Source: Stropharia rugosoannulata
Taxonomy: Eukaryota > Basidiomycota > Agaricomycetes > Agaricales > Strophariaceae
NCBI GenBank assembly: GCA_028532985.1
Contig: JANCIK010000011.1
Coordinates: forward strand, 868,001 to 932,000
Direction of reading: 5' to 3'
DNA length: 64,000 bases
Shown here piece by piece: positions 4,890 to 26,600 of this stretch. The notes under the pieces were generated by a model. That model had not been told where the DNA came from. It was given only the letters and a program-made list of their open reading frames with translations, and searched no databases. How positions within the stretch are numbered: the stretch's first letter is position 1; the number at the start of each line of letters is the position of its first letter. The position numbers were made by a program, and so were the translations under genes.

Positions 4890-4990
4890 ACCTCCCTGAA
4901 TTCTTTTCAGCCCATCTCTCCTCTTTTCACCCTGCCCTTCCTGCTGCTTCCCTTCTCTTCCAACTTACCCTGGCATCTCGTCGCGATTTC

Positions 4991-6986: not shown

Positions 6987-7067
6987 GTCTTGCTGCGGGG
7001 CGCGCATTTTGGCGCTTGTTTTCTCCTTTTTACTTCTTGTTTCCTTCCTACTGTTCTATCTAGCATA

Positions 7068-7285
7068 CAGTGGCTCAAAAAACTGTCCCAATATTTGGGA
7101 CATTTGGACATATCAGTTAATAGCAGAACAACCAGATTACATAAGGACCTGAAATTTCACACATAGGTAGTTGGACATGTGACCTATCCAAAACAAGTAG
7201 TATCACGTGATTTGAAGAAGAACTTGTGTCACAATAAAATAAATAAAATAATGAAACATTGGGACAGTTTTTTGACCCCCTATTT
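7068..7285. repeat. Left terminal inverted repeat of the Tc1-type element
   Basis: About 218 bp, mirrored at 8457-8674. The copies differ at only a few positions (for example around 7093 and 8650). The motif GGGACAGTTTTTTGA occurs at both the outer and inner ends of each repeat, consistent with two transposase sites per end. Confidence 0.85.
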
Positions 7286-7294
7286 ACTAACTAC

Positions 7295-8314
7295 TTAGTA
7301 CTTAGTATGTCCCCCTTTGGCCTTGATAACAGCCTCAATCCTCCTTGGCATGCTACTAATGAGATTTTGACATACTTCTGCTGGAATTTTGTTCCATTCT
7401 GCAGCCAACCTGTCCCACAATTCATGTACTCCTCTAGGTGGTGTTGAATATTCATTAAGTTTGAGTTTGATATGATTCCATAGGTGTTCAATGGGATTGA
7501 GGTCAGGAGATTGAGCAGGCCACCTAAGAACATTGATATTGTTGTCTTCAAACCATTTTGTGGCTTTTTTTGAGGTATGCTTTGGGTCATTGTCTTGTTG
7601 GAAAATCTGCTCCTCTTCTGGCATGTCAAGTATGTCGAAGCTTTCCTGTAGTGCATCCTCCAGAATGTCACAATACTGTTGAGAATCCATGATACCTTCA
7701 ACTTCCACAAGTTTTCCCACACCATTCCAACCCATACAGCCCCATACCATCAAGTTATTGCCACCACCATGCTTTACTGTAGGGATTGTTGTTCTGTCAG
7801 AGATGCCTTCACCTTGTGGTTTCCAAGTATACACCTTCCCATCTGACCCAATCCTATTGACCTTGGTCTCATCTGACCAGAGTATCCTTTTCCAGTCTTC
7901 CACTGTCCAGTTTCAATGGTATAAAGCAAATTTCAGGTGTCTTTGCCGGTGGATCTTCTTGAGTAGAGGGTGTTTGGCTTTGACAACAGACCTGAAATCA
8001 TTCTTTTTGAGAACATTTCTGACTGTTTGTGCAGAGACAGGTGAAGTAATGATGTCATTGATGTATTTGGCAGCCTGAACAGCATTGTCAAGCTTTCCAG
8101 AAGTGATTTGTTGGAGGATAGTTCTGTGATGTCTACAGGAGAGTTTGGGAGGACGGCCACCTTTGTTGTTTTCCTTGTCCAAATCCAGCTCCTTTTTGAT
8201 TCTTCCAATAGTAGACTTGCCCAGACCAGTTTTGGACTGAATTTGACGAACAGAATATCCATCTTGAAGAAAAGAAATAATAGAAGAGCATTGAGAAAGG
8301 CTAATTGGCTTCAT
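7295..8314 (-). pseudogene. Tc1-type DD34E transposase with one premature stop
   Basis: From ATG at 8314 a single frame of ~340 codons runs to 7295, broken only by a TGA at 7913-7915. The N-terminal part has paired helix-turn-helix segments (G-Y-S-V-R-Q-I...G-L-G-K-S-T-I-G-R-I), then a G-R-P-P hook. The catalytic part has W-S-D-E-T, Q-Q-D-N-D-P-K-H and S-P-D-L-N-P-I-E. There are 34 residues between the second D and the E, which defines the DD34E (Tc1) class. Length is normal for the family. Because only one codon is damaged and the repeats are intact, the copy is young. It could be read through or be mobilised by an intact relative elsewhere. Confidence 0.9.
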
Positions 8315-8456
8315 GAGGTAGTGGTAAGAGATTAAGATGGTTGAAGTTGAAATTCAACATTATAAACACTGTCACATGACATCACATGACTTTGTTTAAT
8401 ATTCTCATGGAGTACTGCCACCCATTTGCCCTGCTACATAGAGGATTAAGCAAAGC

Positions 8457-8674
8457 AAATAGGGGGTCAAAAAACTGTCCCAATGTTTCATTATTTTATT
8501 TATTTTATTGTGACACAAGTTCTTCTTCAAATCACGTGATACTACTTGTTTTGGATAGGTCACATGTCCAACTACCTATGTGTGAAATTTCAGGTCCTTA
8601 TGTAATCTGGTTGTTCTGCTATTAACTGATATGTCCAAATGTCCCAAACATTGGGACAGTTTTTTGAGCCACTG
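8457..8674. repeat. Right terminal inverted repeat of the Tc1-type element
   Basis: Reverse complement of 7068-7285, with the same inner and outer copies of the terminal motif. Confidence 0.85.
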
Positions 8675-9028
8675 TATGTAGAATAGTTGTGTTTTACTAT
8701 TATATGCTTTCTAATGATTTTCTTGTCTCCTTCTTGTGTGATCTTTAAGTTCTCTCTGTCTTTTTAAAACATCTAATAGCCTGGTTTCTTTTGAGCAGTT
8801 ACAAGTGCCATGCACACATATGACCAATGTCCACTTGCTTGTATGTGCCCACTAACTTCTGCTCCTGTCTTTCTACTGTGGGCGAGTATAAGTGCGATGC
8901 GCGCATATGAAAGATGTGCCTCTGCGTATACACTAGCCAACTGCTACTTCTGTCCTGCCCTTTCGACCTTTTGTATTATCTCCTTATCTCCTTAAGCTCC
9001 TAGATTTATCTCTGCTTGGCTGGGCCAT

Positions 9029-9075
9029 CTCTCCCCCCCACTATAAATTCAACTGTCCTCAGTTGACAGTTTCTT
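9029..9075 (+). promoter_or_regulatory. C-tract plus TATA promoter of the second outer antisense gene
   Basis: A run of C residues is followed by TATAAAT at 9042-9048, 45 bp before the ATG at 9087. The segment C-tract, ACTATAAA, ACTGTCCTCAGT closely resembles the sequence just inside the left LTR at 4442-4478, so the promoter looks related to the polypurine-tract region of the same element. Confidence 0.5.
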
Positions 9076-9086
9076 TACTGCCTTAC

Positions 9087-10177
9087 ATGTCTCTCCGATA
9101 TCAGCGCACTGCTGTCGCTCGCCAATTCACTGTTTTACTGAGACAACTTGCCATTCATGCGGAGCTCGCAGAGGACTGCAACAACGGCCCTTTTCACTTT
9201 CCTCTACAGTCTGCTCAGTCCCTCGTGCGCGCACTGGTAAAGTCCTTATGCTCATGCAAGCGCTTCCTCTACTGACGTTTTCCTCCAGGATCGCATTACA
9301 CTGCCTTTGCGCTTTATCGATTTCAATCGCCAATTCCTGTCTTTAGTCATGACAATCGTGTTTTACGAAGGCTGCGCTCAGCGCAGATTCAGCGATGATC
9401 ATTTCGATGCGCGCATGCTCAGCAACGCCGCTCTTCACATTCTCGATCGGTACAGCCATCTTGGCATGCCTTTTCACAATCTCCCACCCTCGGAACCAAC
9501 AGGGACCGCCATTCTAGACGTAGATCCCGACGCTGCCCTTGTAGTAGATGATATTAGCTACGATTGAGCCCGTGCGCGGCTCTGATGGATCGTTTAGCGA
9601 TATATATGATCCCTCAATGAACAAGTCTTTTGTCATCATGCCCTCCTTCGATACCGAAAGTAATCTCCTTCAACGCGCGAGGTCCGATCCTTCCTTCCTG
9701 TGCCTAGCTGCTCTACCCAAGCGGGCGCTAGCTGATATTCCGCTCGATGACCATGAGCGCGTCTGCCGCATCTACCTAGGCGCCCTTCATTTTATTCTTG
9801 AGGCTGCGACTGAACCGCTGCTTCCCATGACCATCTGCCTAGACATGATGCGTCACGTTCAAGACCATGCGGTGCGCGCATGTCCCCATTCTCCAGCCTT
9901 TTCGTGCGCGGCTCTGACATCCTTGTAGCGGGCTCTGGCGCTGACCGAAGCTACCTGTCACTCGCCTCGCCTATCGCACTTGTGCGCTCAGCTTCACTAT
10001 AGCAAGCTCGTCCTGCGCTTGTGTGGTACCACAGATGCTGAGCACTACGGCACCCTCCCTCACTCTGAACACTTCCAACAACTCCATTATGCCACCCAGG
10101 TCTTTTACCAGGAGGAATTCTTTCCTGTAGGCCTCTTCTTCCCATACGCTGCGCTGACCCTGACAATCACTTCTTAG
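9087..10177 (+). pseudogene. Second antisense accessory gene of the outer element, frameshifted
   Basis: Exon 1 (9087-9236, 50 codons) is followed by a GTAAAG...CAG intron and exon 2 from 9289. Exon 2 hits a TGA at 9565-9567, but the adjacent frame continues with coherent protein to 9871. After a 57 bp intron (9872-9928, donor GTGCGC) it runs to a stop at 10175-10177. A one-base frameshift near 9550-9565 is the simplest reading; no splice pair I tried joins the frames. The restored protein would be ~320 aa, mostly helical, without recognised domains. It lies downstream of the Tc1 element, on the strand opposite to pol. Confidence 0.55.
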
Positions 10178-10853
10178 GATGTTTAATTCCCGAACTGACA
10201 CTCTGCTGTCTTTTCATTGATAACTATCTATACTCATAGCTAGCATCTATTTCTTGGTACATGTGTCATGACCCTGTATTTGAAATAAGACTGTCGGGTA
10301 ACATTGTTATGCACTTTCGGCATCAATCCCAAAACAGACATCATTTTGCCAAACGGGGAAAGACCTGCATCTCCCTTGATGCGCGCACTGATACGCTCGT
10401 GCGTGCTATGGGCGCGGAAACCACACCACACACACACACTCAATGCGCAGAATGCGAGGGCGCTTCACACGGCTTCTAGCCAAACCCCAAAACAACTCAC
10501 AATTGCGAGCCGGAACGAACTAAAAGCGAGAAGAAAACGCGAGAGTGTAAGCTGCTACGACAGCTTCGAACCACTCTCGGACGCTGGACGCAGCGAGGAC
10601 GCAACGGGGACGCTAAAATGAAGGTAAACAAATGTGGGGGATCTATTCTTCTTGTCCTCTACTTATTACATGCTTTAAATACCGTATGTACCCTGTAACT
10701 CTACTGTAACCGCTCCTATAATTCCCTGTGCTTATTGTTCCTGTAAATGCGTGGCACGGAACGCTACGGCTCTGCGCAACATGCGTGTTCCTCGAGGCGG
10801 GCGCTTAATGGGCGCTTAATCCGCAACATGCCGAAACGGCTGTTTCCGAGCAC
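10178..10853. other. No gene seen; remnant between antisense genes and the inner element
   Basis: About 680 bp without a coding frame I can support. It contains a GATGCGCGCA motif at ~10378, so it belongs to the outer element. The inner element's left LTR starts abruptly at 10854 without a target-site duplication, so some sequence was probably lost here. Confidence 0.5.
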
Positions 10854-11392
10854 TGTTCTCCCCTAAACACACATCTCCTCCGACCCTCTTTCCACACCTA
10901 TGTCCCTTGTGTTTGTATCGAGATACTTCTGCTTTCTGCTACCACACGCTTGCATGTCGTCGGAAACCCCTGCATATCGTCGGAATCCGTTGCCATATTT
11001 GTCCCATGTCGTATGTACGAGTATTTCCATGTGATTGACTCCCTTGTGGGTCCATAGTTACATCAGATTGTTAATATTGATCTGATGTTGTCGGCATCAG
11101 AAGTCCAATATTGCTCTGATGCTGTTATCTTTCTTGATCTGCCATTGAGTTGTAATAACATCTTGAGTCTTCCTTGTGCTTGTCTTCTTGTTTCATCATG
11201 TACATATTTCATATCTTCGAATAAACTTGCATCTTCATATCTTAGACTTCATATTTCGTGCTTCTTCTTGTTCCTTCAGTTTCCGATAGTAGTTTCCGAT
11301 CGTTATGGCGGATATGTCGCTTCTTGTGTATCTATGTTCTGAACCTTATGGTTTTTCATGTTTTCACGAGGGGCCAGCCCCAGCCCCTCACA
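10854..11392 (-). repeat. 3' LTR of the inner element, truncated
   Basis: Matches 21362-21900 with no difference that I could find over 539 bp. It ends CCTCACA. Compared with the right LTR it lacks the outermost 426 bp. Confidence 0.88.
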
Positions 11393-11404
11393 TCTCCCCC
11401 CAAC
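11393..11404 (-). other. Polypurine tract of the inner element
   Basis: TCTCCCCCCAAC next to the left LTR reads GTTGGGGGGAGA on the minus strand, the expected plus-strand primer position and nearly the same tract as at 4442-4454. Confidence 0.75.
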
Positions 11405-11439
11405 TTTTAAAACACCACCCTCCTGGGTGGTCGGAAACC

Positions 11440-11446
11440 TATAAAT
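11440..11446 (+). promoter_or_regulatory. TATA box of the first inner antisense gene
   Basis: TATAAAT, 39 bp upstream of the ATG at 11479 and ~10 bp after a TCGGAAA motif copy. Confidence 0.6.
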
Positions 11447-11478
11447 TTCAGCCAAAAGCGTCGTCGCCATCAAGCACC

Positions 11479-12222
11479 ATGGACCCCGCAGCAGAAAGAA
11501 TATTTCGCTCGCTCTGTTTTGCTCCAGGAAACCGAAGCCATGCATTCGTTGTACCAACAACCATGCGTGAATTTGCGTTGACCATCCGTCACCAACATGA
11601 AATCCTATGCCTCGCCATCTACAAGGACATCCGCACTCGCAGCGTACGAGAACTGAACATAATCGACCATGCGCAAGTGGAAGCGTACGTTCATGATCAT
11701 TTTGATCACATGGTAAGCCCTCGAACCGCTTCACAACTAGCCCTGCTAATGATAGCGCAGCGTTTATTGCTATGCTCGCGCGTCAACATGCGGCCGTCAA
11801 ATGAGCGTGAAATCGAGCGTATGATTCCACCTGAATGCCGCTACCTAAGCGCCAGTGCCAGGCATTTACTGGAGATGTTTCCGATGGAGGAACATGAAGG
11901 GTTTGAGTATTGGTCGACCATACTGCGGTTCATGGCGCTATATGCTGAGGACACTGCCGATGCCACCAAAGAAAACCAAGTCGACTTCAAAGAATTTAAT
12001 GACCTGGACAGCAACAGTCGGTGGTGGTTACAGTTTTCAAACCGCGTCAAAGCCGAAGACCCCCTTGAAGAACACCTGCCAGCATTCAGGCCAGCCGCAA
12101 CACCTGAAGACACATCAGACATCGAAGAAATTCCAGCGGCGATCTTTCATCTTCAAACGGCCGTTCCCTCCCAGCGTCCACATGCTAGATTCCGAACATC
12201 GGTGCGAGAGATGGATATATAA
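11479..12222 (+). CDS. Inner antisense gene 1, unknown function
   Basis: Open from ATG 11479 to TAA 12220-12222 (248 codons). A probable 48-bp intron at 11713-11760 (GTAAGC, a GCTAAT branch-like site, GCGCAG) preserves the frame, giving a 231-residue spliced product. The protein is helical with no signal peptide, and its C-terminal third is acidic. A segment R-Y-L-S-A-S-A-R-H-L-L weakly resembles the outer gene at 9087 (R-M-L-S-N-A-A-L-H-I-L), hinting at shared ancestry. It lies opposite to pol next to the 3' LTR. No domain recognised. Confidence 0.65.
   Translation: MDPAAERIFRSLCFAPGNRSHAFVVPTTMREFALTIRHQHEILCLAIYKDIRTRSVRELNIIDHAQVEAYVHDHFDHMVSPRTASQLALLMIAQRLLLCSRVNMRPSNEREIERMIPPECRYLSASARHLLEMFPMEEHEGFEYWSTILRFMALYAEDTADATKENQVDFKEFNDLDSNSRWWLQFSNRVKAEDPLEEHLPAFRPAATPEDTSDIEEIPAAIFHLQTAVPSQRPHARFRTSVREMDI
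12216..12222 (+). promoter_or_regulatory. TATA box overlapping the preceding stop codon
   Basis: TATATAA contains the TAA stop of the gene ending at 12222 and lies 45 bp upstream of the ATG at 12261. The two genes are therefore packed as tightly as separate promoters allow. Confidence 0.5.
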
Positions 12223-12260
12223 AGTGTAGAGCTCTAGTAGATTATTCCGTAGCACCCGCA

Positions 12261-12678
12261 ATGCAAGCGCCTTTACGTCTATATCTTCAATCTTTAGTGC
12301 TTGAGTTGCCCACCGATCTAAACGATTTCCGATCGCGATTTCCGATCCCATATGTCTTCAAACATTGCCTTGATCCATTCGTCGAAGCCCTAGAATATGA
12401 ATACACACGAATACTCCAGCTTGACACCATCAACTTGCAGCCTGTCATAACCGATCTCCGGTCCTTCTTGTTCCTAGGACAAACCATAGCAGTAAGTAAC
12501 GTCTTCAGGGGACGTGCCGCCCTAACACATGGCCGAATTGAGGGTGTTAATGCGTATGCGATACATGACGATGACATTTGGATACACCGGGCACGAGATT
12601 CCCGAAATCAAGGAGCGCATGGACGACGTTTTCTTCCAGTATCAACAGGCATGTGTGTGCGGAGTAGGCGACCCATAA
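12261..12678 (+). CDS. Inner antisense gene 2, unknown function
   Basis: Exon 1 (12261-12491, 77 codons) ends at GTAAGT. The best in-frame acceptor is at 12597, giving exon 2 12598-12678 and a 103-aa protein ending C-V-C-G-V-G-D-P. The alternative is read-through to 12707 in the first frame. The product is short and helical, with no recognised domain. The intron placement is my choice on frame and splice-site quality. Confidence 0.55.
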
Positions 12679-12782
12679 CCAACAACCGGCTGTCGGAAAT
12701 TAGCTAGATAATCTCCAGACAAGTGACATGTATCCATGCGTCCAGATCGTCCAATGCCAAGTAGCCCAGCGCCTGAAATCTG

Positions 12783-12790
12783 TATAAAAG
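12783..12790 (+). promoter_or_regulatory. TATA box of inner antisense gene 3
   Basis: TATAAAAG, 39 bp upstream of the ATG at 12822. Confidence 0.6.
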
Positions 12791-12821
12791 GGAAGGCAAC
12801 TAGTCTGCCCAAACACCAGAA

Positions 12822-13331
12822 ATGAGCACCACCACGCGATTCACCACATTATTGACCACAGCTGTGAAGAATCCAGCGGACATCATGCAGGTCCTAGAGC
12901 ATGCCATTCGGCCTACCATAGACCAATTGATATCCGATCAAATGCTATCTCGTTCCGCAACAGACGCGATGGAAACACATCGGACACTTGCCGCCCTGTG
13001 CCATTACATTGTAAGTTGACCCACTTGTCCCGTTGAAATCAAACCCAATTGACAATCCCTATTCTGCACAGAATGACCATTTCGAAGATTATATATCCGC
13101 GAAACAATTCCGACCCCAGTCATCGTGGACACTACTCTTGCTTCGCCGGGTCATGAGCGAATACGGGCCGTTCTTGTAGACAGCGAGCAGGATAAGGCAT
13201 TGAGCCTACTCAAAGCAGCTGAGAAGCAGTCGCAAGGTTTCCGCCACTGCTACTTGTGCGAAACTGACTTCACCATAGATGGAGTAGAGAGATGGAGGGA
13301 CTGGATTGAGAAACAAGCCAATCAGCCGTAG
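12822..13331 (+). CDS. Inner antisense gene 3, probably frameshifted
   Basis: Exon 1 (12822-13010, 63 codons) is helical and followed by a clean 61-bp intron (GTAAGT...CACAG, 13011-13071). The expected exon-2 frame stops at ~13179, while a neighbouring frame from ~13080 to 13331 encodes a coherent C-terminus with a CX2C pair (H-C-Y-L-C-E). Either a one-base indel or an intron that I cannot place separates the parts. If intact the protein would be ~150 aa. No family recognised. Confidence 0.45.
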
Positions 13332-13879
13332 ATACAACTGCCCATAGATGTAAACTCCTTATGATAGATTTCCGCACACAAATTTGACACTGCCATACGA
13401 TGCCGAAAAATGCCGAATGAAAATGGAAGATGCCGAAGTAAAACTGAACAAGCCGCCCAGCTTACACATGCGCCATTACAGCCGAAAACGCCAGTTGAAA
13501 ATTCCGCGGCGGCCCAGAGCAATGCCGCAGCAACAACCGGACGGCAGACAAAAGAGGTATCGCCATTCCCTAAAGCAGCACGGCACGTCACCATAAACCC
13601 GACGCCATCACGCCGTCATACTTGATTAGGCAACGCCGCTTTCCAGAACATGAGCCACGGTGATTTCCGACCTAAAAATAGAAAATCCGAACAAGATTCG
13701 CGTCGAAGTTATCGCGGTTCCAGTAAAGGCAGGCCAATTGTCCAACATATAGGACCGAGTCATAGAGAAGAATCCACAGCATTCTATCAGTTTCTTCATA
13801 GTGCCATCCACGCCTGATGCCGGACCCATTCAAAGCTAGCCGATTTCCGAAAGCGTGCTGAACCACTGTCCCAGAAGAA
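13332..13879. other. Spacer between inner antisense genes, nothing coding supported
   Basis: About 550 bp. It contains three close copies of ATGCCGAA (13398-13435) and TTTCCGA motif copies near 13662 and 13846. Overlapping open frames in both directions lack splice or codon support. Confidence 0.4.
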
Positions 13880-13888
13880 TATAAAAAG
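13880..13888 (+). promoter_or_regulatory. TATA box of inner antisense gene 4
   Basis: TATAAAAAG, 72 bp upstream of the ATG at 13952. Confidence 0.6.
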
Positions 13889-13951
13889 CCTGCCCATTCC
13901 ACTCATACTTTCACCATTCTTCCCCCCCCACATTCATCACCTGCTTAAGAC

Positions 13952-14959
13952 ATGCCTCCTCGTCGCACCGCTCGTCCCGCCTCTACGTATGAAGTCGATA
14001 TGCGCTGGTCCGCTCCACAAATTCTTGGACTTGCAGAAGGGTGGTATGAGTACGACCAGGTGAGTAAATATGCCATACTGAGTTACAGCCATACTAAAGC
14101 ATTGACCTAGCGGTGTTCTTGGTGCCAAAGTCACCCCGGCTATATGTGTACTTTGCGCTACACACCTCGCTGGAGCAGGGCATGTACCAATTGCAAGGTT
14201 GACAAAAAGAATTGCAGCAATAATACTGCCGAATGTGTAAGTGTCTGTTAATTGTATTCTGTCGCTTTCATGCTGATAACTTCATCCGTAATTTAGAAAC
14301 AACACCCGGGCGACTTCCTGACTCGTGCCTTAGCTGGCAGCGACTTCTCATACGACCGACGGTCCCGGACCGTCCACCCAGAGCCCGAAGAAGATAGCGA
14401 CGGCGACAGCGACAGCGAAAGCGACAGCAGCCAGGACAACGAGGTCGAAGAAGTGGACGAACTTGAAGCAGACGACACGGCCAACGCAGTAGCCCCCTAC
14501 AACGCGCCTTCGAGCCCTATGCGAATTGAGGATGATGGCCCTCTTCCATACTATGAGGCAACGCCTGTTTTCGAGTACACGGAGTCCATCGTCGCAAAGC
14601 AAAAAGATGTTGGCGAGGGAACTTCAGGTGAGTAATTACAATTCCCTATCTTTAACAGGTTTCGGTAACCTCGTTGCACAGGTATTACGCGTTCTAGTCC
14701 CAACGCAAGTTCTAGCGGTCCTGTTGAGGGTTTACCCTCGTATGCACCATATACACAGTTGGTGCGAGATTTCCGCGAATGGCAAACGACTGCCAACCCA
14801 ACAGATGGGCTTGAAGAGCTGGACGACCTTTGCGAAAGAAACCTGCGACATTATTCTGACATGGAAAATCGGCTTCGCGATCTGGTGGAATTATCAATGG
14901 AGCGTATCGAGGAGATCCGTAGAATGTCCGGGGAAGTAAAAAGATTCCGCAGGAGGTAA
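13952..14959 (+). CDS. Inner antisense gene 4: cysteine-cluster (putative zinc-binding) protein
   Basis: Four exons join in phase: 13952-14059, 14111-14236, 14297-14627 and 14682-14959, giving 280 aa. The introns are 51-60 bp GT-AG. Exon 2 is almost entirely a cysteine cluster, residues 38-78: CX2CX7CX11CX2CX6CX6C, with a basic K-V-D-K-K stretch between the last cysteines. It resembles the CxxC...CxxCxxxKxxC clusters common in Agaricomycete proteins and is comparable to exon 4 of the outer gene at 4991-6986. Exon 3 is highly acidic (D/S/E repeats). Exon 4 forms a predicted coiled coil (E-R-I-E-E-I-R-R) with a basic end. A regulator-like layout: zinc cluster, acidic region, oligomerising helix. 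Function inferred only. Confidence 0.78.
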
Positions 14960-15218
14960 AAAAGGATTTATATGTATTTCTTCTTGTCGTATTTCCTTTC
15001 GCCCTTCGTCGGAAACCATATTGTCATAGTATCTTGTAGTCAATAAATTGTCTTGGTCATGCACATTTTAGTTTGAAAGCAATAATTTCATAATCTTGTA
15101 AAAACAGAAACATAACCTAAAAGAAAAAGAGTTTATTTAACAAATGAGAAGAAATGAACTTGAAACTGTTGAAGCTCCATTAAGAAATATAGGTTGTGTA
15201 AGCGTTGTCGGAAACTTG

Positions 15219-18200
15219 TTATTCATCATCAGGCGCCACTTGCGAGTCCTCAGGTACCTCTTCGCGTACCATGCCTTCAATTAGATCCTTGGGTTGAGAC
15301 AATAGTTCCCATGGTATTTCAAGCGGTTCTCTTGATATATAAGGTATTAGGCGATATGCGGCGAATCTCTTGTAGGATACGGCTCCACTGAGTTCAGCGC
15401 AGATGTAAGACCCCCCTTTCGTTCGTCGTAACACCATTAGAGGCCCAAAGTATCGCGGTTTTGTTTTCCGATCAAGTGATTTTTCAACTGGTGAATTTCT
15501 GACTAGGACCAAAGTACCTGGTGCGAAATCCTGTAACACGATGCGATGCTTATTGTATTGCTCAAAATAACGAGCTTGCCTCAGCCGTGCTTGCTCCACT
15601 TTGTCCTTGACCCTTTCAAGATCTTCCGGTCGCTTCTGCAGCATTATAGCTCTTCGTGCTATTAGCTCTTCTTCGAAATCATATCAACTTGATCGGGAAA
15701 CATGAAAGTCGCTTCTGTAATGTCAAATGGAAATAATGGTTCCACTCCGTGTGCGATATAGTAGGGAGTATAACCTGTTGATTTTTGTACCGTAACACGT
15801 TCAGCCCATAAAACAAATCGGAGAATTAATGGCCATATTGATAAGTCGCCTTCACAAGTCTTGACTATTGCTTCCCTAACATCGAGATGTCGCTTTTCAA
15901 TCAAGCCGTTTGCCTGCGAATTATATCCCGAAATTCTGATGTGGTAGATTCCATATTTTTCCGCCAAGTAGTTCACGGCTTTAACCCAAGGTGTACCATT
16001 GTCTGTCACGATAATAGCCATAGCTCCCCATCGCGACATAACATCCAACAGAAATTCTCCTATAACCGTATGGTTTTCCGACGCTACAGCCAGAGCTTCA
16101 GGCATTCCCGAAAGTGAACATCGTAGATGAAGACAGAGATGTTTTCCCCCTTTTCCTTTGGGCATAAAGAAAGTATCCGCGTGAACCTTGACAAAAAGCG
16201 ACAATGGACGAGCTACCGTTGGCGGAATGAGGTTCTTTACCCTAGACTGTCGCTGACATATATCGCAGGTCTTCAAGTACCACGTAAGATCATTACTGAT
16301 GTTAGGCCACCAAAAACGCTTCGTGAGCCTATTCCACACAGTGAAATAAGACTTATGTCCTAAGTTATCATGTACTTCTTGAAGTATCCGAAGCCTATCT
16401 TCTTGTTGTACCACTTGTTTATGTTCACCATCATCGGACCTTTTCCATAGCTTTCCGTCCAGTATGAAGAATTGCCTTACTTTCTTGAGGAAGCGGTCAT
16501 ACTCCTTTCTTGTGCGAATCCATGCGGGTCTTTCGGGGTCGCCTAGAAATTCTTTGACCTTCTTTAATTCCTCATCCATGTCAGCCCCTCTGTCGGAAAC
16601 CGGTAATTTAAGCGTTGTAGTAATTTCCGAACGGTGAGGTACCGATTTAGCTGCAATAAGTACCATAGCCTTGTAAGACAATGACGATCCTGGTATTTTC
16701 TTCTGTACCATGGACATGTGAGTGAATTTCCGATCGTCATTTTTGTTTAAGACCCAGATTCCGAAGCCGCATGCCCTGTCGATCCAGTCTTCTACTTCTT
16801 CTTCGGAATCTTCTTGAGGATCTAATTCTGATCGTCTCCTTCTTGACAGACCGTCTGGTGAATGTGATTTTCCAGGGACGTGTTCTAGCTTGAAGTCAAA
16901 CAAAAGTATGGTGGCTATCCAGCGATTTATCGTAGCATTAGGTTGTATATCGGGGTTGTTTAACATTCCCTTGAGGTAACTCGCATCAGTCCTGACTATC
17001 AAGTTTTCCACTCCAACCAGGTATATCCGATACGCTCTAAGGCTGCGAAATAGGCCATATAACTCGATCTTGGCTTGTGAGTATCTTGATTCTCTTTCGT
17101 TCCAAGTTATAGAACCAAACCGCGCAGGATGTTCCTTTCCGTCTTCTTTAACCTGAGATAAAATAAAACCCACGGCTATGTTGCTTGAGTCCACCTCCAT
17201 TATTATCTGTCCTTCGATTCATAGTCCAATGCCGTTAATGCTGGAGACTGAATTAAGAGACGCTTTAAACTGTCCATTGCTTCTTGTTCTCTTTGTCCCC
17301 ATGTGAATTCAACGTCCTTCTTTGTTAGTTCAGTTAACGGTCTTGAATGCATTGCATAATCTTTAATAAAGATACGCATTACACCCAATGTTCCCAAGAA
17401 TGAACGAACTTCTGTCAAGTTTTCACAAGGTTTCCAATCCCTGATAACTCTGACTTTTGACTCATCAACCGTCCTTCCTTGGATGCTGCACATATGGCCA
17501 ACAACATTAATTCTTGGCACAGCCAAAAAGGATTTCGAGGCATTGAAGGTTCCTCCAGCATGCTGTATTCTTTGAATAATGCGATGTACATTGTTCAAGT
17601 GTTCCCAGACAAATCTTCTGATACCAGGGTTTTCGGAAATCGTTTCATAGACCCCATTCTCATCTTGATAATAAGATCGTGGTCCTTTGACCGGTACATC
17701 GTCCACAAAAGGTGCCGTAAATTCAGGAATCTCAGGCTCCAAGATAAATGACACATCTCCCTGTTGTACTTGAACCGAATTTGTAAATCCTTGTGGTAGA
17801 CGGGTCAATCTCAGGTTTCCGATAGGCGAAGAGAACGTAGTATAATCTCTTGAATCTTGATGAAGAACCCGATGGTCAAATCCTATGAACAAATCAAACA
17901 TGGCATAGATAGTTCTTCCACCGAAAGATTCCGCATAAAGTTCTACAACTGGCGGTAGAGCTGAGTCTTTTATGGTTACTGCATTCAACCTTCTCAGGTC
18001 ATGCACCACCCGTATTGCTCCGCTTTTCTTTGGCACATATAAGATCCTGGACCGATAAGGTGAACTAGAAGGTTCATATACTTTGCTTGCGACTTTATCT
18101 TGAAAAATTCTCGTGACTTCTTTAGCGATGCCTGGAGGTATCGGTATCGGTTTTTCCGCCCATGGTTCATGTGGTACAACGGGTATCTTTAGAGGTTCAA

Positions 18201-18867
18201 AATAGTCTTCTCTGAAGGCACCTTTCTCCATCTCATTCCAGGCGAATCCCATCTCATGTTCTTTAATGATCCATTGAACTAGACGAGCTTCATCCGGTGT
18301 CAAGAAGCCATCTTCATTTATGTTCCAGGCGTCCATTCGTTCTTTAGTATAGCGTATTCCTGGTTCAATATGGTCCACTTTAAAAGGTAACGGTTTCATA
18401 TTAGCCAGAGGATCCGATGGAATTCTTCTAATAACACGATATTCTTCGGGAAGTGTAGTTGACACAGGAAACGTCCGTCTTGCCACAGGTTTATATTTCT
18501 TCCTGGCTTTTATTATTAATGCTCTTTGTTGAAAAGAGTAAGCATAAGTCTTCTGTAAACATTGGCCGATAAATCTAGCCGAAACTTCAAAATTAAAATT
18601 AGTAGGGTATATTTCATGGTATGATGATCCTCTTTCATCATCTATTCTTGCCGCAAATAAGGGAGTTATAAATCGTCCAAATGATAGTGCTGAAGGAATA
18701 TCCTTCTCTTGCTGTTCATGTCGTTTCTTGTGCACTATATTTAACATGAACATCTTTCCCGACCGTTTTAATTCAGTCGGGATTCTGGAAAATCCGCTAA
18801 CTCTTTTTCGGAAACCTTGTTCCTGGGCTGAGTTGGAATAGTAACCACTTTTTGCGTGTTGGGGCAA
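15219..18867 (-). pseudogene. Inner element pol: reverse transcriptase, RNase H, integrase (frameshifted)
   Basis: Three consecutive frames cover pol. 18867-17203 carries RT: R-V-V-H-D-L-R-R-L-N, then the catalytic F-V-D-D, then a connection domain. 17200-15662 carries RNase H (V-D-S-S, E-L-Y-G-L, R-T-D-A-S-Y) and integrase (H-D-N-L-G-H, C-D-I-C, V-T-D-N-G, G-L-I-E-K-R-H). 15644-15219 carries the C-terminal G-P-L module. The breaks at ~17205 and ~15668 are each repaired by a single-base change in the reading, so they are indels, or assembly errors. Domain order and sequence match the intact pol at 23665-27600. The RT frame overlaps the upstream protease frame by 99 nt. Confidence 0.88.
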
Positions 18868-19718
18868 GTCAAAGTAATTTCCTGGTCGCCATTTGTATAA
18901 TCCCTAGTAGTGCATCCAGTATACACAAAGAACGGTCGTCCTATCAGAACTTGAAAAGGGGCTTTATCCACGACATGTACTTGAAAATAGAGTTCAAGGC
19001 TTCCAATAGTGATTTTAAGGTTTTCGCACATTCCATCCATTTGCGATAATTCCGTGTTGGCAGACTCCATATATATTTTCCTTTCTGGGTTTATATTGTG
19101 AGACAGTTTTCTCCATATGCGCTTGTCCATTGCCATGATTTCCGATCCTTGGTCCAAGACACATTCCGCCGTGAATTCACCGTTTAGCAACGCGGGTATC
19201 ACCCTGAGTTTCATAAGGGGAGAAGCCGTCAAAAGGACTCTATCCGATGGCCCATTTTCCGAAGCAAATTGTAGCACATAAGACCCTTCATTTTCTTCGC
19301 CATGAACATAGCTAACCGTCGGAATTCTCTTTGGTGTAGTTGTTTCCTTGAAATATTTCCGAAGTTCTCCAGAAATAGCCAACAACTCTCTTTGAGAAAT
19401 AGTAATTTCTGCATCCAAAGATTTTGATATGACTTTCTTAAGAAGATCCAGATTTTCCGCTCCTGAGGTGAATCGGTACTGGGGTCCTTTAGCCGGTTCA
19501 AATCTTACATGTGCTTCTGGTATTGTCTTTTCCGATTTCCTTTCGGCAATCACGACTTCAGGGACTTTTTCATAAGCAGATGAGTTTTTGCCTGGTCCAG
19601 GTTTGTCTTGGGGCGAAGACCTTGTCTTCAGATAAACCTCACCGATTTCTTCGCCGACTTCTTCGAGTTTACTGGAAGAATTAAACAAGGTTTCAGCCGT
19701 AGTACAGGAAAACATCAT
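18768..19718 (-). CDS. Inner element protease ORF
   Basis: 316 codons from ATG 19718. The C-terminal half is an aspartic protease-like domain: a V-L-D-Q-G-S-E-I segment in the catalytic position, then the I-G-R-P-F-F segment typical of retropepsin-like folds. The usual D-S/T-G triad is DQG here, whereas the outer element has DSG. The N-terminal half (residues ~1-150) is a basic linker that aligns loosely with the outer element's protease ORF. It lies between gag and RT in its own frame. It may be inactive. Confidence 0.8.
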   Translation of the reverse strand: MMFSCTTAETLFNSSSKLEEVGEEIGEVYLKTRSSPQDKPGPGKNSSAYEKVPEVVIAERKSEKTIPEAHVRFEPAKGPQYRFTSGAENLDLLKKVISKSLDAEITISQRELLAISGELRKYFKETTTPKRIPTVSYVHGEENEGSYVLQFASENGPSDRVLLTASPLMKLRVIPALLNGEFTAECVLDQGSEIMAMDKRIWRKLSHNINPERKIYMESANTELSQMDGMCENLKITIGSLELYFQVHVVDKAPFQVLIGRPFFVYTGCTTRDYTNGDQEITLTCPNTQKVVTIPTQPRNKVSEKELADFPESRLN

Positions 19719-19791
19719 CGTGGTAGCTGGCGACAGGTGAGGGGTACATCTCGAGCACGTTGCAGTTTGAGGATGTTTTCAATCCTTTCTT

Positions 19792-20979
19792 TTATTGTTC
19801 CAGTTCCATTGATCCAGTCGCCGTTAGCCATTGTGAATCTACCATTCGCCCTTGTTTGATGATTCCCTTGTTTATAAATTCATCCGGCAAGTTGCAAGAC
19901 CTCATAATATGATTAATGTCTCCGCAAAACAAGCAACCAGGGGCGTAGCGCGAGTGGAACGATACATAGGTCTTTCTTGCGTCGGAAAAGATGTATTAGG
20001 TTGGCCTTGCATAAACATCTTTATTGATCCTAATTCCGATGTCATTTTCCTTAGCATGAGCTCAAGAGCAGTTTCTTCGGTTTTCGTCCGTTCACGAGGT
20101 GTGTCTTCAAGGCCATACCTGTCAGAATAAGCGTTATCTTGAAGAACATATCGAGCCGCTCGATTAACTTGAAGATAATCATGAACCAGGCCCGGTTTCC
20201 GCTTCGGGTCTTCAGCCGTTAATTGAGTAAGAACCTTCGCCCTGAATTCTTTTGGAAGACCTAGAACATAGTTTCTGTTGATGTCGTCTCTTGATGATAA
20301 TTGCTCCTTCTCCAGATAAGTAGCTATAATCATGAATTCACAATGATATTCTGCTAGAAGTTCTTGATTATCCATGGGTTTGCTCGAAAACTTCTGTATT
20401 AATTTATGCAGATCGTTGACTGAGTATTTGTAGAGCGAATCCAACCCAGGGAAATATTCCAGTAATATTTGTTTATTCTCCTTCCAGGATTTGTTTTCAT
20501 CTAGAATATTCTTCCATGTTTCGTGGTATCGGTAATCCACATACCACAGGGTTTTTGTAATCCGTGTGATATCCGATGTGTCTCCTGTCTTTGCATAATT
20601 CCTCGATGTCCTCTAGGTATCGATGTAAAGGAGTAGTGGGTCCTGTAAACGATGGAGCATCTTTTGAGTTGCGATTTGGGTAAGGCTTGACTTTGGGCGC
20701 CACGGTTTGAACTTCAAAAGGGTTTGCTTCGATTCCGTGATCCATTTCCGATATATGGCTGAGTACTGAAGATATTTGGCTTCCTGACGGTGTCGGTCTT
20801 TTCCTTCTTCTCTTGATGGGTGCTTCAGGAGGTTGTAGGGGTATAGCAAATTCTGCAGCAAGTTGACGAGTTATCCGACGGTCTGGAACAGACGGATCTA
20901 TTGTGAACTGTAGACCCTCGCGGTGGGCTCCACGTTGTGAGGTGCGAAGTTGGGTTGGACTGGTCTGAAAAGCCTGTCT
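19792..20979 (-). pseudogene. Inner element gag with CCHC zinc knuckle, frameshifted
   Basis: A frame open from 20979 (a TTTAG acceptor-like site precedes it) runs through the end of the LTR, across the primer-binding site and into the gag N-terminus. It has a basic K-R-R-R-K-R stretch and then the L-H-R-Y-L-E-D-I-E segment matching the outer gag. The frame switches at ~20555 (0 to 2) and again at ~19950 (2 to 0). After the latter it encodes CX2CX4HX4C and ends at 19792-19794. No ATG precedes the conserved part until 20745, so the start is uncertain and may be supplied by an upstream spliced exon. Damaged by at least two indels. Confidence 0.75.
20915..20932 (-). other. Primer-binding site of the inner element
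   Basis: The minus strand reads TGGAGCCCACCGCGAGGG three bases inside the 5' LTR. It starts with TGG (pairs with tRNA CCA). The same 18 nt occur at the same place in the outer element (32411-32428). The tRNA identity was not determined. Confidence 0.7.
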
Positions 20980-21900
20980 CTAAAGTTCACAATGTGCGAA
21001 GGCAACGTGTGTACAACGATAGCACGTTGAAAAGGTTTTACTTGTTTCAAAACAAGGAGCTTCCAGTGTACGAGGTTTAAACAACGGTTTCCGATGCGAA
21101 CTGGTATGGTGTGTGTAGGTAGAATTTAACCCTGAAGGAAGCTGGAGAAGTACAGAGATATTCTACTCCTTAAATACCCGTCTGGTTGCCATGCCCAGAT
21201 CGTACCATATCCATCCACGAAGATCCGACCGCCCGTGCTGACTTTATCTCGTCGGAAACCATGCTGCACTACAGCATGCTTCATATCTTGGCCACAAATA
21301 TCCTTATCTTCGGAAACCAAGCCCAAGCACAAGAGATCTTCCTGCGACCGGATCAACTCCATGTTCTCCCCTAAACACACATCTCCTCCGACCCTCTTTC
21401 CACACCTATGTCCCTTGTGTTTGTATCGAGATACTTCTGCTTTCTGCTACCACACGCTTGCATGTCGTCGGAAACCCCTGCATATCGTCGGAATCCGTTG
21501 CCATATTTGTCCCATGTCGTATGTACGAGTATTTCCATGTGATTGACTCCCTTGTGGGTCCATAGTTACATCAGATTGTTAATATTGATCTGATGTTGTC
21601 GGCATCAGAAGTCCAATATTGCTCTGATGCTGTTATCTTTCTTGATCTGCCATTGAGTTGTAATAACATCTTGAGTCTTCCTTGTGCTTGTCTTCTTGTT
21701 TCATCATGTACATATTTCATATCTTCGAATAAACTTGCATCTTCATATCTTAGACTTCATATTTCGTGCTTCTTCTTGTTCCTTCAGTTTCCGATAGTAG
21801 TTTCCGATCGTTATGGCGGATATGTCGCTTCTTGTGTATCTATGTTCTGAACCTTATGGTTTTTCATGTTTTCACGAGGGGCCAGCCCCAGCCCCTCACA
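20936..21900 (-). repeat. 5' LTR of the inner element (full length, 965 bp)
   Basis: Bounded by TGTGAGG and CCTCACA, directly next to the primer-binding site. The right 539 bp equal 10854-11392. The first 426 bp are absent from the left copy. Confidence 0.75.
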
Positions 21901-22152
21901 GCGGCGCCGTGCTCATCAGCACTCTTTTGCTGCGATGTGCGCACAATCATCCCCCTTCTTCTCGTTGCTATATGGGCTCTTGTATTCAGGTCCCTTCCAT
22001 CCCACTCAATCTCTGTGAAGGAAACGTTAGACCGGTGTAGCCCTGTGCTATGACCCATCTGGACCCTTTTGTAAAGTCCCTCCTTTAACTCCTTGGGCCT
22101 GCTGCTCGGTCAGTCACCAGCTGCGTGCAGCACTGATCAACCCAGTGAATGC

Positions 22153-22161
22153 TATATATAA
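22153..22161 (+). promoter_or_regulatory. TATA box of the third outer antisense gene
   Basis: TATATATAA, 60 bp upstream of the ATG at 22221. Confidence 0.6.
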
Positions 22162-22220
22162 CGCTTGCCGTCTCTGTATGAGCGCACCGCACTTTATTCC
22201 TACTGTTCTCAACCATTACC

Positions 22221-23537
22221 ATGGCTACTACTCATGCTCCTCTTTTTAACTTCACCAATGTCAAGCATCAACTCTCGCTGATCCAGGACATTCGTGGGTT
22301 GGCCTCTGCCACTCCTGCGAATTATACTGGTAGCTTGGAGCTGCTTGCTGTTGATTTGGTGCGCGCACCGCGCGGTTCTTTTGTTGTATTTTACTGACTT
22401 CGTCTGGCACGATTGCAGAACCGCTGGCGCGACGCGCACGGCGGTATCACTCGCGTTATAAACAACAATGAAGCTGTCGAGATCCTCAATGAGACTCGCG
22501 CCATATATACGTCGCTCGAGGCTGACCACCACATTCGCTCCTTTTCCCCTGCTGCCAACGCATTCATCAACTTGCATGAACAAGTCCTCAAGGCTAAGGC
22601 TGCTGCTTCTCGTCAGCGCACCCATACCCCTACTGGACCGGTGTGCTCGTCTTCCTCTCCTAACCCTTTCTATACTTAATCTCCTTTTTGGTGCACGCAG
22701 CGCAATGTTCGCGTTCTTACGCGTTCCGCAACTGCAGACCTTGAGACCGCCTCCGCGCCTGGAGGTACTACATCTCCTGACTCTGACTCTGACAAGGTGT
22801 GGCTAACCTTCGCTTCCTTACCAGACATCACTAACATGCAACTTTACATGCTCCTCAAAAAGATGGCCCTCGACGATAAAGTTGAAGCCGCGACTGAGGG
22901 AGGTCCTCCCAGCAGGCAGCATACACCCGAGCCGAGTCCTAACAAGAAGCGCGCCGCGCCTCCTGATACTCCTAAACAGGTGTGTGTTTGACTTGTCTCC
23001 GCTGCGCACACTTAGATTCTTATAGAAATACCAGCGCGAGTGCGGAGACACTCCTGGTTACCGCTCTCGTCCCCTTGGTCGAGGCATGACTTATCGCCAG
23101 ACCGAGCTTCGTCGCTCATTCCGTGACGCCGCCGCAGGTGAAGCCTCTCCTAAGAAAGCCAGGCTGGGCTCAGAGGGCGTTCCTACGTTCCCCGACTCTC
23201 CTTTTATTATGCAAGGTGCGCGCACCACACCACTCTCTTACTAATCTTTTCTAACCCTTCTCCCTCAGGCACTTCTCTCGTTTTGGACAATGACAAGGTC
23301 AATGCTTGTCTTGATGCCGCCGCTAACCTCCTTAAGGAACCCCTTAATACGGGTAACCCTTCCGAGTTGGTGACGCGCCGCCTCATTGGTGATTTACAAG
23401 CAGAGATCATTTGTGATCTCCACAAGGTCGATTTCATCCTCAAGTGCCGCGTGCTCCTCGTCGAGCAGCTTGTCATCTTGCAGCGCAGCCTTGATGTTAC
23501 TGGCGTTACTGCCACCGAGGACAAACCGGCCCAGTAG
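22221..23537 (+). CDS. Third antisense accessory gene of the outer element
   Basis: Five exons join perfectly in phase: 22221-22358, 22419-22640, 22701-22979, 23026-23215 and 23269-23537, giving 365 aa. The protein is helical at the N-terminus. It has a proline/serine and basic middle (N-K-K-R-A, S-P-K-K-A-R) suitable for nuclear targeting, and a C-terminal ~85-residue helical region. Introns 1 and 4 both begin GTGCGCGCA, embedding the element motif in the splice donor. The stop lies only ~130 bp from the end of pol, which runs in the opposite direction, so the two transcripts converge. It occupies the same pol-proximal position as the antisense genes at 2030-3185 and 13952-14959. No domain recognised. 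Confidence 0.75.
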
Positions 23538-23664
23538 ATAGCCTGGCTCAATATGCGCTGCGCGCCTTAAAGGGACGTCTGTAGCTAGCTCTCTTTGTAG
23601 TCCCCATCTTCTTTACCCAATATATTATATTGTGGTCACTTTTCTTCCTACGGTGCTCGCACAT

Positions 23665-26600
23665 CTAAGTGTCTTCTTCGCCCCAGTCATCATCGTCTTC
23701 TTCATCTTCTTCCACTGTAAGCGCACCGCTACCCGAGGGTACACCGGGTTCATCAAAGATATAATCTTTGGGAATAGCTGGCTCATAATCCGGTGCCTCT
23801 AACATTTTAGCGAGGTTCTCCTTGGTCTGATCAATTATATCATCCAAGCCGTCCGGTAAGCGCAGCTGCCTTCGTGCAAAGTAGGGAATGAGGCGGAACG
23901 CCGCCACCTTATCCTTCAACACAGAGCCGTCCATCTCTGCCACTAAATATGCTCCACCGTCTTTTCGTGCGATAACGATGTAAGGCCCGTTCCATCGTGC
24001 GAGCATCTTACGGTTCAGGCTGGATTCTATGCCCGAGTTCCTCATTAGCACTACATCTCCTGGCTTAAACACATAGTCACGGATTTTAGCCGAGTGCTTC
24101 TTTTCAAATGCCCTGATCGCATCTCTTTTCGTCTTTGATACTCGTGCGCGCATCTCCTCTACTGTGTCGCGATGTTTGGCTAGTGCGCGCGCGCGGTACC
24201 CTACTAACTCCTCCGTAGTCAGCACGCGATCTGGTAGCTTCACCAGCCAAGTCGCCTCTGCTATGTCGAATGGTAGTATGGGGTGCGCGCCCGTCACCAT
24301 GAAGAATGGGGAACACCCAAATCCTCGTCGTACGGTGATACGATCAGCCCACAACACATGGTAGAAGAATCTACTCCAACGCTTGTGCGCGCCCTTTGTC
24401 CCTCCACACGCTTTCCACAACATCTGTCTTATGTCCCAATGAGGACGCTCTATTTTTCCATTCGCTTGCGAGTTGTACGCGGAGATAGTAATCCCTGTAA
24501 TCCCATACTTCTTTTCTAAATACTTGAGCGCTGCGCGGAACGGTCCACCATTGTCTGTGATGATTTCTTGTAGACAGCCCCAACGGCAGATAATGTCCTC
24601 AAATATCCACTGTGCTATTGCACGGGCATTCTCTTTCTTTAATGGCCGCCCTTCCGCCCATGAGCTCAGCGCACATCTTCCGTGCACTATGTAATTATAC
24701 CCATTGGAGGCTGGGGACATGTGCATAGTGTCTGCATGTAGTTGCTGGAAGATAGACGGCGTGTGTGTCTCGGTGCGCGGGATCTGAATGATCGTCTTCT
24801 GCCTTAACTGACAGACATGACATGTTTTCACATACCAGTAGACATCCCTTTCCAACTCAGGCCACCAGAAGCGCTCGGCTAGCAGTTTGCGCGTAGCGTA
24901 CGCTCCCCTGTGCCCCAAGCTGTCATGCGCTGAGCGCAGCATGCGTGTCCGCTGCGCCTGATCTATCACCAACTTATGCGCGTCATCTATGGATCTCCGG
25001 TACATCCGCCCATCCTTGTCTAAGAAGAAGTTACGAGCATTCCTCGTAAAGTTCTGATATTCTCGCTCCGTCATGCCTTTAGGCCTAGTGGTTGGATTCT
25101 GCAACCAGTAGCGTATCATCGGCAATTTCTCATCCATATCTTTTCCTGCAGACGTCCTGTTGCGCTCATCGTACTCCTCATCCTCCAGATCCTCTATTCT
25201 GGAGTCGGGTATGGCGTGCGCTAGTATGAATTTCTCTAAGTACTCGCGCTGCACGAGCGGTACACTCTCTTTCTGTATGAAGTCCCGCACGGCCCGCTTT
25301 TCCGCTTCCGTCTCTTCCCGTGCGCGCTCGAGCTCCTGCTGGAAACAGCCTATAGAGCGCGCTTCTGGCAACTTGCGCGCGGTGGGACCTTCAAACAACT
25401 CGTTGAGTAGTCCTGTGTATAGATACCCGCCGCGATCGTCAATCTGTTCTTTGAACTCCTCAAAGTCCAGGGGATCCGGGTCCTCTTCATAGACTTTCTC
25501 ATATTCGAGCGGTCCTACTTCTTGATCATCATCTTCTTCAGAGTGCGCGTACGCCTCATCTCCCAATTGCCCTTCCCTACGCGATAAACCATCCGCACCA
25601 AAGGTTTTGCCCGCAACATGTTTCAACTGGAAGTGATACATAAGTATTTTATCTATCCAGCGATTAATAGTCGCATTAGGGCCCATGCCCGGATTATCCA
25701 ACATGCCCTTCAAGTATTTGGCATCCGTTTCCACCACCAGCTTGCGCGCACCGATAAGCCAGTAATAACAGGCTTGTAGCGCCCGTAAGAGTCCATACAA
25801 CTCCCGTTTGGGCTGTGAGAAGCGCTGCTTGCGTTCCGTTAACAGTATTGATCCGAAGCGCGCATATACCCTCTTCTTCGAATCTTGTGGGTCCTGCTGA
25901 TAAATATAGAACCCTACTGCTCGCCATGATGTGTCTACAGCCAAAGTAATCGGCCCTGGCAATGTGTAGTCCAGTGGTTTCACGCAATGTGCGTTGCGCG
26001 CACCGTCTTTCAGCGAGTCCATGCTAGCTTGCTGAGCGGGCCCCCACTCAAAGGGTTCTTTCCCACGCAACAGCCGCTGTATGTGCTCTGCGTGCTTCGC
26101 GTAATCCGAGATGTAAATCCGTAGCAGACCCATTGTACCCATGAATGCGCGCACATCACTGATGTTCTTGCATGGCCCCCAATTGAGGATCGCATGCACT
26201 TTATCAGGTGCTGGCTTTCGTCCTTCGTATGTACACAAGTGCCCCACCACTACTATCTCCGCCGCGCACAGTATGGACTTCTTTCCACTAAATGTTCCTC
26301 CTGAGTACTTCATGCGCTGCACGATTCTGTTGACATTCAACATGTGTTCCCATACGAATCTCCTTATTCCCTTATTCTCTGGTATCGTCTCATATCCTCC
26401 CCCTTCTAACTCGTAGCGCGTTTTAGGTCCCCTAATAGGTACATCGTCTATATAGGGCTCTGTAACTTCAGGTATTTCATCGCGTAATATATATGCGACA
26501 TCCTCATGAAAGATGGGCACGGAGTTCGTCCATCCCATAGGTAGGGTTACTAAGCGCAGCGCACCGAACGGCGTCTGGAACGTAGTCAGGTCTCTAGAGG

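Follow-up and report, generated by a model that had tools for sequence, protein, structure and literature searches.

Related Gypsy-type retroelements of Stropharia rugosoannulata carry private CpG-containing words that change with the clade of an antisense cysteine-cluster protein

Nested retroelements and a dispersed heptamer

The window analyzed here is a 64-kb stretch (C11:868001-932000) of the 48-Mb genome of the fungus Stropharia rugosoannulata, which is assembled in 20 contigs and is the only genome considered. It contains an inner long terminal repeat (LTR) retroelement at 10854-21900 that is nested within an outer LTR retroelement at 3228-33642, and the gag-pol genes of both lie on the minus strand. 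The inner element is saturated with one heptamer, TTTCCGA/TCGGAAA, and encodes a cysteine-cluster protein antisense to gag-pol; the outer element has a word of its own, RTGCGCGCAY, and likewise an antisense gene with a related cysteine cluster. In four related families of Gypsy type, a CpG-containing word private to the family is found at raised density in the examined stretches, and the word changes with the clade of the antisense protein, which is encoded between pol and the 3' LTR. The features of the inner element, including its open reading frames (ORFs), are as follows.

10854..11392, minus strand (the pol sense): 3' LTR, 539 bp, 100% identity to 21362-21900; 3 motif copies
11479..12222, plus strand: further antisense ORF without Pfam match; 1 motif copy
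12261..12707, plus strand: further antisense ORF without Pfam match; 3 motif copies
12326..12345, plus strand: paired motif TTTCCGATCGCGATTTCCGA, with TTTCCGA-N6-TTTCCGA spacing
13952..14959, plus strand: antisense cysteine-cluster gene, exons 13952-14059, 14111-14236, 14297-14627 and 14682-14959
15219..20540, minus strand: gag-pol ORFs; 13 motif copies, spread over both strands and several frames
15219-15644, minus strand: C-terminal ORF of gag-pol
15662-17200, minus strand: RNase H-integrase ORF; Pfam RT_RNaseH and Integrase_H2C2 above cut-off
17203-18867, minus strand: reverse transcriptase (RT) ORF; Pfam RVT_1 below cut-off
18768-19718, minus strand: protease ORF; Pfam Asp_protease_2 at cut-off
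19902-20540, minus strand: gag ORF, assigned by position only
21362..21900, minus strand: 5' LTR; 3 motif copies

The cysteine-cluster gene, modelled from sequence alone, has four exons with GT-AG borders and is open without a stop; its product consists of a six-cysteine module, an acidic middle and a charged, helix-like C-terminus. The gene is kept between pol and the 3' LTR in most copies of the inner element's family (hereafter the focal family), which makes this an LTR retrotransposon bearing an antisense ORF, and a cysteine exon lies no more than 6 kb from 19 of the 22 near full-length focal-type RT matches. The corresponding gene of the outer element has 145 matches in the genome, some loci having two, and the six cysteines are invariant across 12 exon sequences from four clades. 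Among 1277 candidates from a protein collection, no homologue of the outer antisense ORF was found at E<=0.001. The inner element has further antisense ORFs at 11479-13330, two of which match nothing in Pfam, and several unexplained ones occur in another locus (L042), so the accessory set may exceed the cysteine protein.

The inner element contains 32 exact copies of TTTCCGA/TCGGAAA, in agreement with a preliminary description of about thirty copies in 11 kb, whose motif positions were correct to within about 10 bases (for example, 10960 for 10969). Elsewhere in the window we found six copies (10843, 46063, 53292, 56159, 60604 and 63008). The chance expectation had been put at about one, whereas the computed value is 2-3. 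The enrichment held in background-corrected counts of all 7-mers, with both Markov models and shuffles. TTTCCGA ranks first at Markov orders 1, 2 and 3 (expected 2.2, 3.0 and 5.3 copies). With one LTR counted, there are 29 sites vs a mean of 2.10 and a maximum of 8 in 1000 dinucleotide shuffles, and the best count for any 7-mer in 100 shuffles of the element was 16. It is also the top 7-mer in gag-pol 15219-20540 alone (13 vs 1.6 expected) and in 11393-15218 alone (9 vs 0.9 expected).

The copies are distributed over the two LTRs (6), the gag-pol ORFs (13), the antisense ORFs (4), and the spacers and leader (9), and those within ORFs occupy both strands and different frames. The earlier placement in LTRs, spacers and coding regions thus stands, but its extension to introns is not confirmed, because no copy falls within the three modelled introns of the cysteine gene; the entire gene 13952-14959 is free of the motif, in a gap from 13844 to 15009. 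The flanks of the 29 sites are unrelated, except for purines at the two bases 5' of the core (24 of 29 each), and the base after the core is never G (29 of 29), giving the extended word RRTTTCCGAH. The strands are split 18:11, with a slight preference for the strand opposite pol. A single 13-bp tandem pair was found at 12323-12347, and tandem-repeat rows are few in general (4 in 3228-33642 and 2 in a second element, L029). The TTTCCGA-N6-TTTCCGA spacing occurs 97 times genome-wide (45+52), and its reversed control 0 times.

Integration targeting by TTTCCGA was considered and is not supported: one copy, at 10843, is only 11 bp away from where the inner element begins on the left, yet three other junctions are without the motif. 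No TTTCCGA was present in the 60 bp outside the LTR at the three junctions with readable outer flanks (L003, L007 and L027). The inner element shows no matching 5-bp target-site duplication (AGCAC at 10849-10853 on the left, GCGGC at 21901-21905 on the right) despite its identical LTRs.

Words, protein clades and the turnover of sites

The outer element has the following features.

3228..4441, minus strand: 3' LTR, 99.2% identity to 32431-33642
3898..33335, no strand: span of the palindromic word TGCGCGCA, 22 scattered copies; three LTR sites counted in both LTRs
6180..6986, plus strand: antisense cysteine-cluster gene region, with the cysteine exon at about 6192-6374 and the coil exon starting near 6438 (approximate borders)
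23665..30826, minus strand: gag-pol ORFs, pol by Pfam
30911..32330, minus strand: insert in the leader, 92% identity to the LTR of a CAGCGGA-clade element
32431..33642, minus strand: 5' LTR

The window holds 24 copies of TGCGCGCA, 22 of them inside the outer element. Scoring of 7995 candidates gave 918 matches to its pol. Words were counted in stretches surrounding pol relatives and relatives of the antisense gene; 13 loci picked for diversity from about 100 antisense loci were read, plus the window and locus L015. Besides the focal clade, the counts for three further clades are as follows.

Clade O (outer element, L030, L034, L036, L037), word TGCGCGCA, 0.3 to 1.1 expected: outer element 11 in 7.2 kb and 7 in 9.0 kb (two parts); L030 12 in 6.5 kb; L034 9, L036 4 and L037 6 in 4 kb each
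Clade C (L029, L031, L032, L033, L015/16, L038, L039, L041), word CAGCGGA, 1 to 4 expected: L029 41, L031 38, L032 30 and L033 38 per 6.5 kb; L015/16 53 in 11.8 kb; L038 15, L039 13 and L041 16 per 4 kb
Family 3 (L042, L017/18), own word CCGGTATAA: CGGTATAA 9 in 7.4 kb (L042, 0.3 expected) and 11 in 11.7 kb (L017/18, 0.6 expected)

Three loci with a word were left out of the clade counts: L017/18 and the outer-type L025/26 (TGCGCGCA 10 in 10.7 kb), whose cysteine exons lie outside the fetched stretches, and L040 (CAGCGGA 21 per 4 kb), whose exon did not fit the cysteine pattern. Among undecayed loci with the exon read, the word matches the cysteine-exon clade in 15 of 15, one of them weakly, with four words for four clades. 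The highest foreign-word count was 5 copies of CAGCGGA, in the outer part 21919-30910 and again in L025/26, where 2 are expected. The insert at 30911-32330 is probably a solo LTR of a clade C element. The CCGCTGAG cluster of the outer leader comes from this insert, and a module swap, also considered as the origin of that cluster, was dropped in its favor.

Between clades O and C, where the word changes, the encoded proteins diverge to different degrees. RT-integrase is 87-90% identical, gag 86-88% and protease 81%, whereas the coil exon is 41-54% identical and the cysteine exon only 31-32% over its full length (37-39% in a stretch of 38 residues). Where the word changed, divergence is therefore greatest in the candidate DNA-reading part. 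Since the words of these sister clades differ while gag-pol stays 81-90% identical, these elements form a natural series for a protein and its dispersed sites changing together. Within clade O, gag-pol is 97% identical (one copy, L025/26), and the coil and cysteine exons of L030, L034, L036 and L037 are 67-75% and 63-80% identical, respectively.

Five compact pol relatives (L013, the inner element of L015, L019, L021 and L023; 7.0-7.6 kb per one-LTR unit) contain no cysteine-cluster match by pattern, and they have no enriched word (best 7-mer log10 P of -3.1 to -4.8); the corresponding values are -18.7 for the focal element and -38 for L029. Two of the five are among the closest pol relatives of the focal family in the genome (55-57% RT identity). 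In the L013 and L015 stretches, cysteine-cluster matches lie outside the compact elements, and that of L013 has a stop. Two further RT relatives (57-58%), L009 and L011, are nested or have unclear borders and were left out of the clade counts; their best 7-mers reach -6.9 (CGAATTC) and -4.2, respectively.

Enriched words also occur in blocks outside the four families, including AAAAGAC in a pair of 1-kb inverted arms at 37.2-41.5 kb of the window (log10 P -12.5), ATTCCGC and AATAATA (-7.0), and GCCGAGA in a repeat array of L014 (-25.3), and an enriched 7-mer alone is therefore not diagnostic. The weight of the case is carried by dispersal, turnover and clade-tracking. As the elements within a clade are related, what counts as independent evidence is four pairings of a word with a protein, a single turnover test between clades and the five negative elements.

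The turnover test compares the gag-pol of the clade C element L016 with that of the outer element (77% identity over 5.83 kb). CAGCGGA occurs 29 times in the former vs 4 in the latter, with 2 sites at homologous places, and GCGCGCA occurs 5 vs 17 times, 3 of its sites being shared. Among 5487 distinct 7-mers, no others differ as much between the two sequences, each of the two words leading in one direction. The clade C gag-pol sites fall into sense frames 0, 1 and 2 (4, 8 and 7 sites) and antisense frames 0 and 2 (2 and 8), and 19 of the 29 are in the pol sense, as are 132 of 157 CAGCGGA sites in four clade C stretches. Where the DNA differs, 14 of 27 sites alter an amino acid vs 1567 of 4822 background windows (Fisher P 0.04). 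Codon bias as the origin of the words is disfavored by the several frames and both strands, and an origin by duplication or tandem repeats is disfavored by the unrelated flanks and the few tandem repeats.

Sites are also retained. In pairwise comparisons of four clade C loci, 73-90% of sites are shared, vs a conservative neutral expectation of 66-81% and 38-66% for permuted control words; sharing exceeds the neutral expectation in 6 of 6 non-independent pairs, the excess being 0.06-0.14 in four of them and at most 0.02 in the other two. Focal copies were compared over 16 aligned pieces from nine loci, where 54 of 60 site instances are intact; the motif is thus common to other copies of the family, and across the four clades of this genome the word follows the antisense protein, two checks that the preliminary description had proposed. 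Bases differ at 6 of 425 motif positions vs 701 of 16009 others, and at 4 of 121 CpG bases in sites vs 200 of 1610 elsewhere, in a comparison biased by the choice of sites that are intact in the window copy.

A candidate self-recognition system and its alternatives

We consider it probable, with considerable room for doubt, that the antisense protein binds its own family's word and thereby counters CpG-methylation silencing or otherwise activates the family. The proposal made earlier, in which the heptamer is recognized by the cysteine-cluster protein that the element itself encodes, gains support as a reading from clade-tracking, with binding as its prediction. In this mechanism, the six-cysteine module and the coil-like region would form a sequence-specific DNA-binding protein. 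Occupancy of the words would counter CpG-methylation-based silencing or otherwise activate the family, as VANC proteins do for VANDAL elements, and selection for many sites would keep making new ones by point substitution, even within coding sequence. If the protein recognizes its own word, the element would therefore address its own chromatin and not that of its rivals.

The CpG context is consistent with this proposal. Focal copies differ at 12.4% of CpG bases vs 3.5% of other bases, and cytosine methylase domain matches are present; this excess CpG decay, together with the methylase matches, would fit a CpG-methylating genome. All family words contain CpG. A DNA transposon with a KDZ transposase (E 3.9e-44), a CxC2 cluster (1.7e-13) and a TET/JBP oxygenase (8.7e-16), located at C3:1913300-1920256 (L043 1-3300 plus L025 1-3657) in a stretch adjoining another outer-type element (L025), carries 32 copies of CCGCCGG in 7.0 kb, where 1.2 are expected. 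The longer form ACCGSCGGT occurs 402 times genome-wide vs 314 for its reversed control, and it is the clusters, not the total, that stand out. Among the matches listed on contig C1, two clusters of 17 and 13 sites each have a KDZ match (123 such transposase matches occur in the genome); no TET/JBP match lies inside these two listed clusters, and so the demethylase is not always paired with the word. This context suggests that the words belong to counter-silencing systems. More broadly, and with doubt slightly outweighing confidence, several unrelated kinds of transposon (Gypsy elements and KDZ/CxC2 elements, some with TET/JBP) may spread private CpG words over their DNA, genes included, which their own cysteine-rich protein would read to keep their copies unmethylated, with protein and word switching together at family splits.

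A number of observations weigh against the proposed role of the protein. Both binding and demethylation are predictions for these fungal proteins, the antisense cysteine proteins have no known Pfam domain above cut-off, and AlphaFold models are poor (pLDDT 49.5 and 52.5). The protein varies within clade O though the word is constant there, and another of the several antisense ORFs could be the reader of the word. In the outer part 21919-30910, the element's own word (7) is barely above CAGCGGA (5); L036 of clade O is weak, with its 4 copies of TGCGCGCA in 4 kb and a top 7-mer log10 P of -3.5, within the control range; and L035, a decayed clade O copy (GC 0.478), is without the word. For the focal copies, about half the background rate is the fairer comparison, because only sites intact in the window copy entered it, and with the background halved the P values are 0.18 for all bases and 0.12 for CpG bases, a trend only. 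The pol-sense bias of CAGCGGA is also what a role at the RNA level would produce.

Among the alternatives, the element's protein might bind the word to limit its own family, through self-silencing, copy-number control or target immunity. This predicts the same protein-word co-variation, and self-avoidance would permit the observed nesting, since the outer host element lacks the inner word but for the copy 11 bp from the junction. We nevertheless regard it as unlikely: purely self-limiting functions are, by reasoning rather than result, hard to maintain under element-level selection, and the presence of CpG in all words of a CpG-decaying genome points to methylation. A host DNA-binding factor is about equally hard to favor. 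Other transposable elements use host factors, and the word of each family could have arisen as a binding site for a separate activator or insulator of the host, which would then be the protein that reads it. However, the word and the cysteine exon of the element change together while gag-pol stays 81-90% identical, and the five elements without a match to the cysteine gene have no word.

An RNA-level role of the word, perhaps in packaging the genomic transcript or in its binding by Gag, seems improbable to us. The orientation of CAGCGGA speaks for it, whereas TTTCCGA slightly favors the opposite strand, TGCGCGCA is palindromic as DNA, and the word switches along with the antisense protein while gag remains 86-88% identical. 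We strongly disfavor a functionless word spread by duplication, template switching or composition. The single 13-bp tandem pair is of the kind such spread would leave, but the flanks of the 29 sites are unrelated save for the purines before the core and the lack of G after it, shuffles and Markov models cannot reach the observed count, and, where coding DNA of two clades can be aligned, the sites emerged at positions that do not correspond.

Self-recognition through an element-encoded protein has a known precedent in the VANDALs of Arabidopsis, which are plant MULE-type DNA transposons. According to two papers (PMC5735166, PMC10398659), VANC21 binds a 9-base motif, YAGTATTAY, that is dense in VANDAL21 copies, VANC6 targets carry other motifs, related families differ in both protein and motif, and the motifs are mainly non-coding, in tandem repeats and in one orientation. 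The fungal system similarly combines an element-encoded protein with a short motif enriched in its own family and not in related ones; related families encode divergent proteins and carry different words, and most CAGCGGA sites share one orientation. In contrast, the fungal carrier is an LTR retroelement with LTRs and protease, RNase H and integrase domains; its words are dispersed over coding as well as non-coding sequence, the gag-pol ORFs holding 13 of the 29 focal sites, and tandem repeats are few; and its protein has six invariant cysteines, with binding and demethylation demonstrated for VANC and predicted here. The resemblance is one of logic, not of family.

Maize Spm has subterminal sites. 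In PMC10398659, Spm TnpA and MuDR MURA are transposon proteins linked to methylation loss of their own family; unlike the fungal elements, Spm and MuDR are DNA transposons of maize, and MURA acts on terminal inverted repeats. By position, a closer parallel is aORF-3R of the plant LTR retrotransposons Grande, RIRE2, Retand and PvRetro13, which also lies antisense to gag-pol between pol and the 3' LTR and whose functions are given as unknown, with no mention of a self-motif, in the part of PMC7264820 consulted. The fungal protein differs in being tied to an element-wide DNA word, and the likeness noted is one of position. A 2025 paper on fungal TET/JBP transposons (PMC12730594) reports none in retrotransposons. 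Those KDZ and TET/JBP elements resemble the Gypsy families studied here in being fungal transposable elements with a gene thought to counter silencing, and differ in that they encode a dioxygenase and belong to the DNA transposons. The KDZ element with TET/JBP analyzed here is likewise saturated with a private CpG-containing word.

The inner exon spacing C-x2-C-x7-C-x11-C-x2-C-x6-C is one that we take to be close to Zn2Cys6 (Gal4-type). As in fungal Zn2Cys6 regulators, the cysteines are followed by a coil-like region, and CGG/CCG is part of four of the five words. Assignment of the inner exon to Zn2Cys6 (PF00172) is nevertheless not supported, as its Pfam Zn_clus score of 9.5 bits (E 1.5) is far below the cut-off of 21; the antisense sequences of the outer element, L033 and L042 gave no Zn_clus match, and the outer-clade word has no CGG.

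Among the titles and abstract openings listed by searches of open-access PMC literature, none names a fungal LTR element with a self-motif. The function of antisense genes in LTR retrotransposons is posed as an open question in PMC7264820, and here sequence by itself ties one such gene to a specific DNA word. The proposal makes a one-step prediction, namely that each antisense protein binds the word of its own clade, and the system bears on how a parasite marks its own DNA without marking that of its rivals or host. If the broader reading is true, antisense ORFs of LTR retrotransposons would gain a function, and VANC logic would have a second, independent origin.

Other features of the window

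A piece of a third element adjoins the outer element at 1-3227, with an RT match just left of the window; it is 97% identical to part of L017 (family 3). Within the outer element, inverted repeats of about 234 bp (98% identity) at 7056-8686 flank minus-strand ORFs that presumably resemble a Tc1/mariner-type transposase. The 1-kb inverted arms at 37232-38251 and 40490-41509 are 95% identical and rich in AAAAAGAC, partly at 10-bp spacing. They look like the ends of another mobile element, and similar stretches occur in L026 and L027. At 61472-62244, overlapping direct repeats that are about 78-89% identical form a minisatellite-like array. The genome also contains 46 hydrophobin matches.

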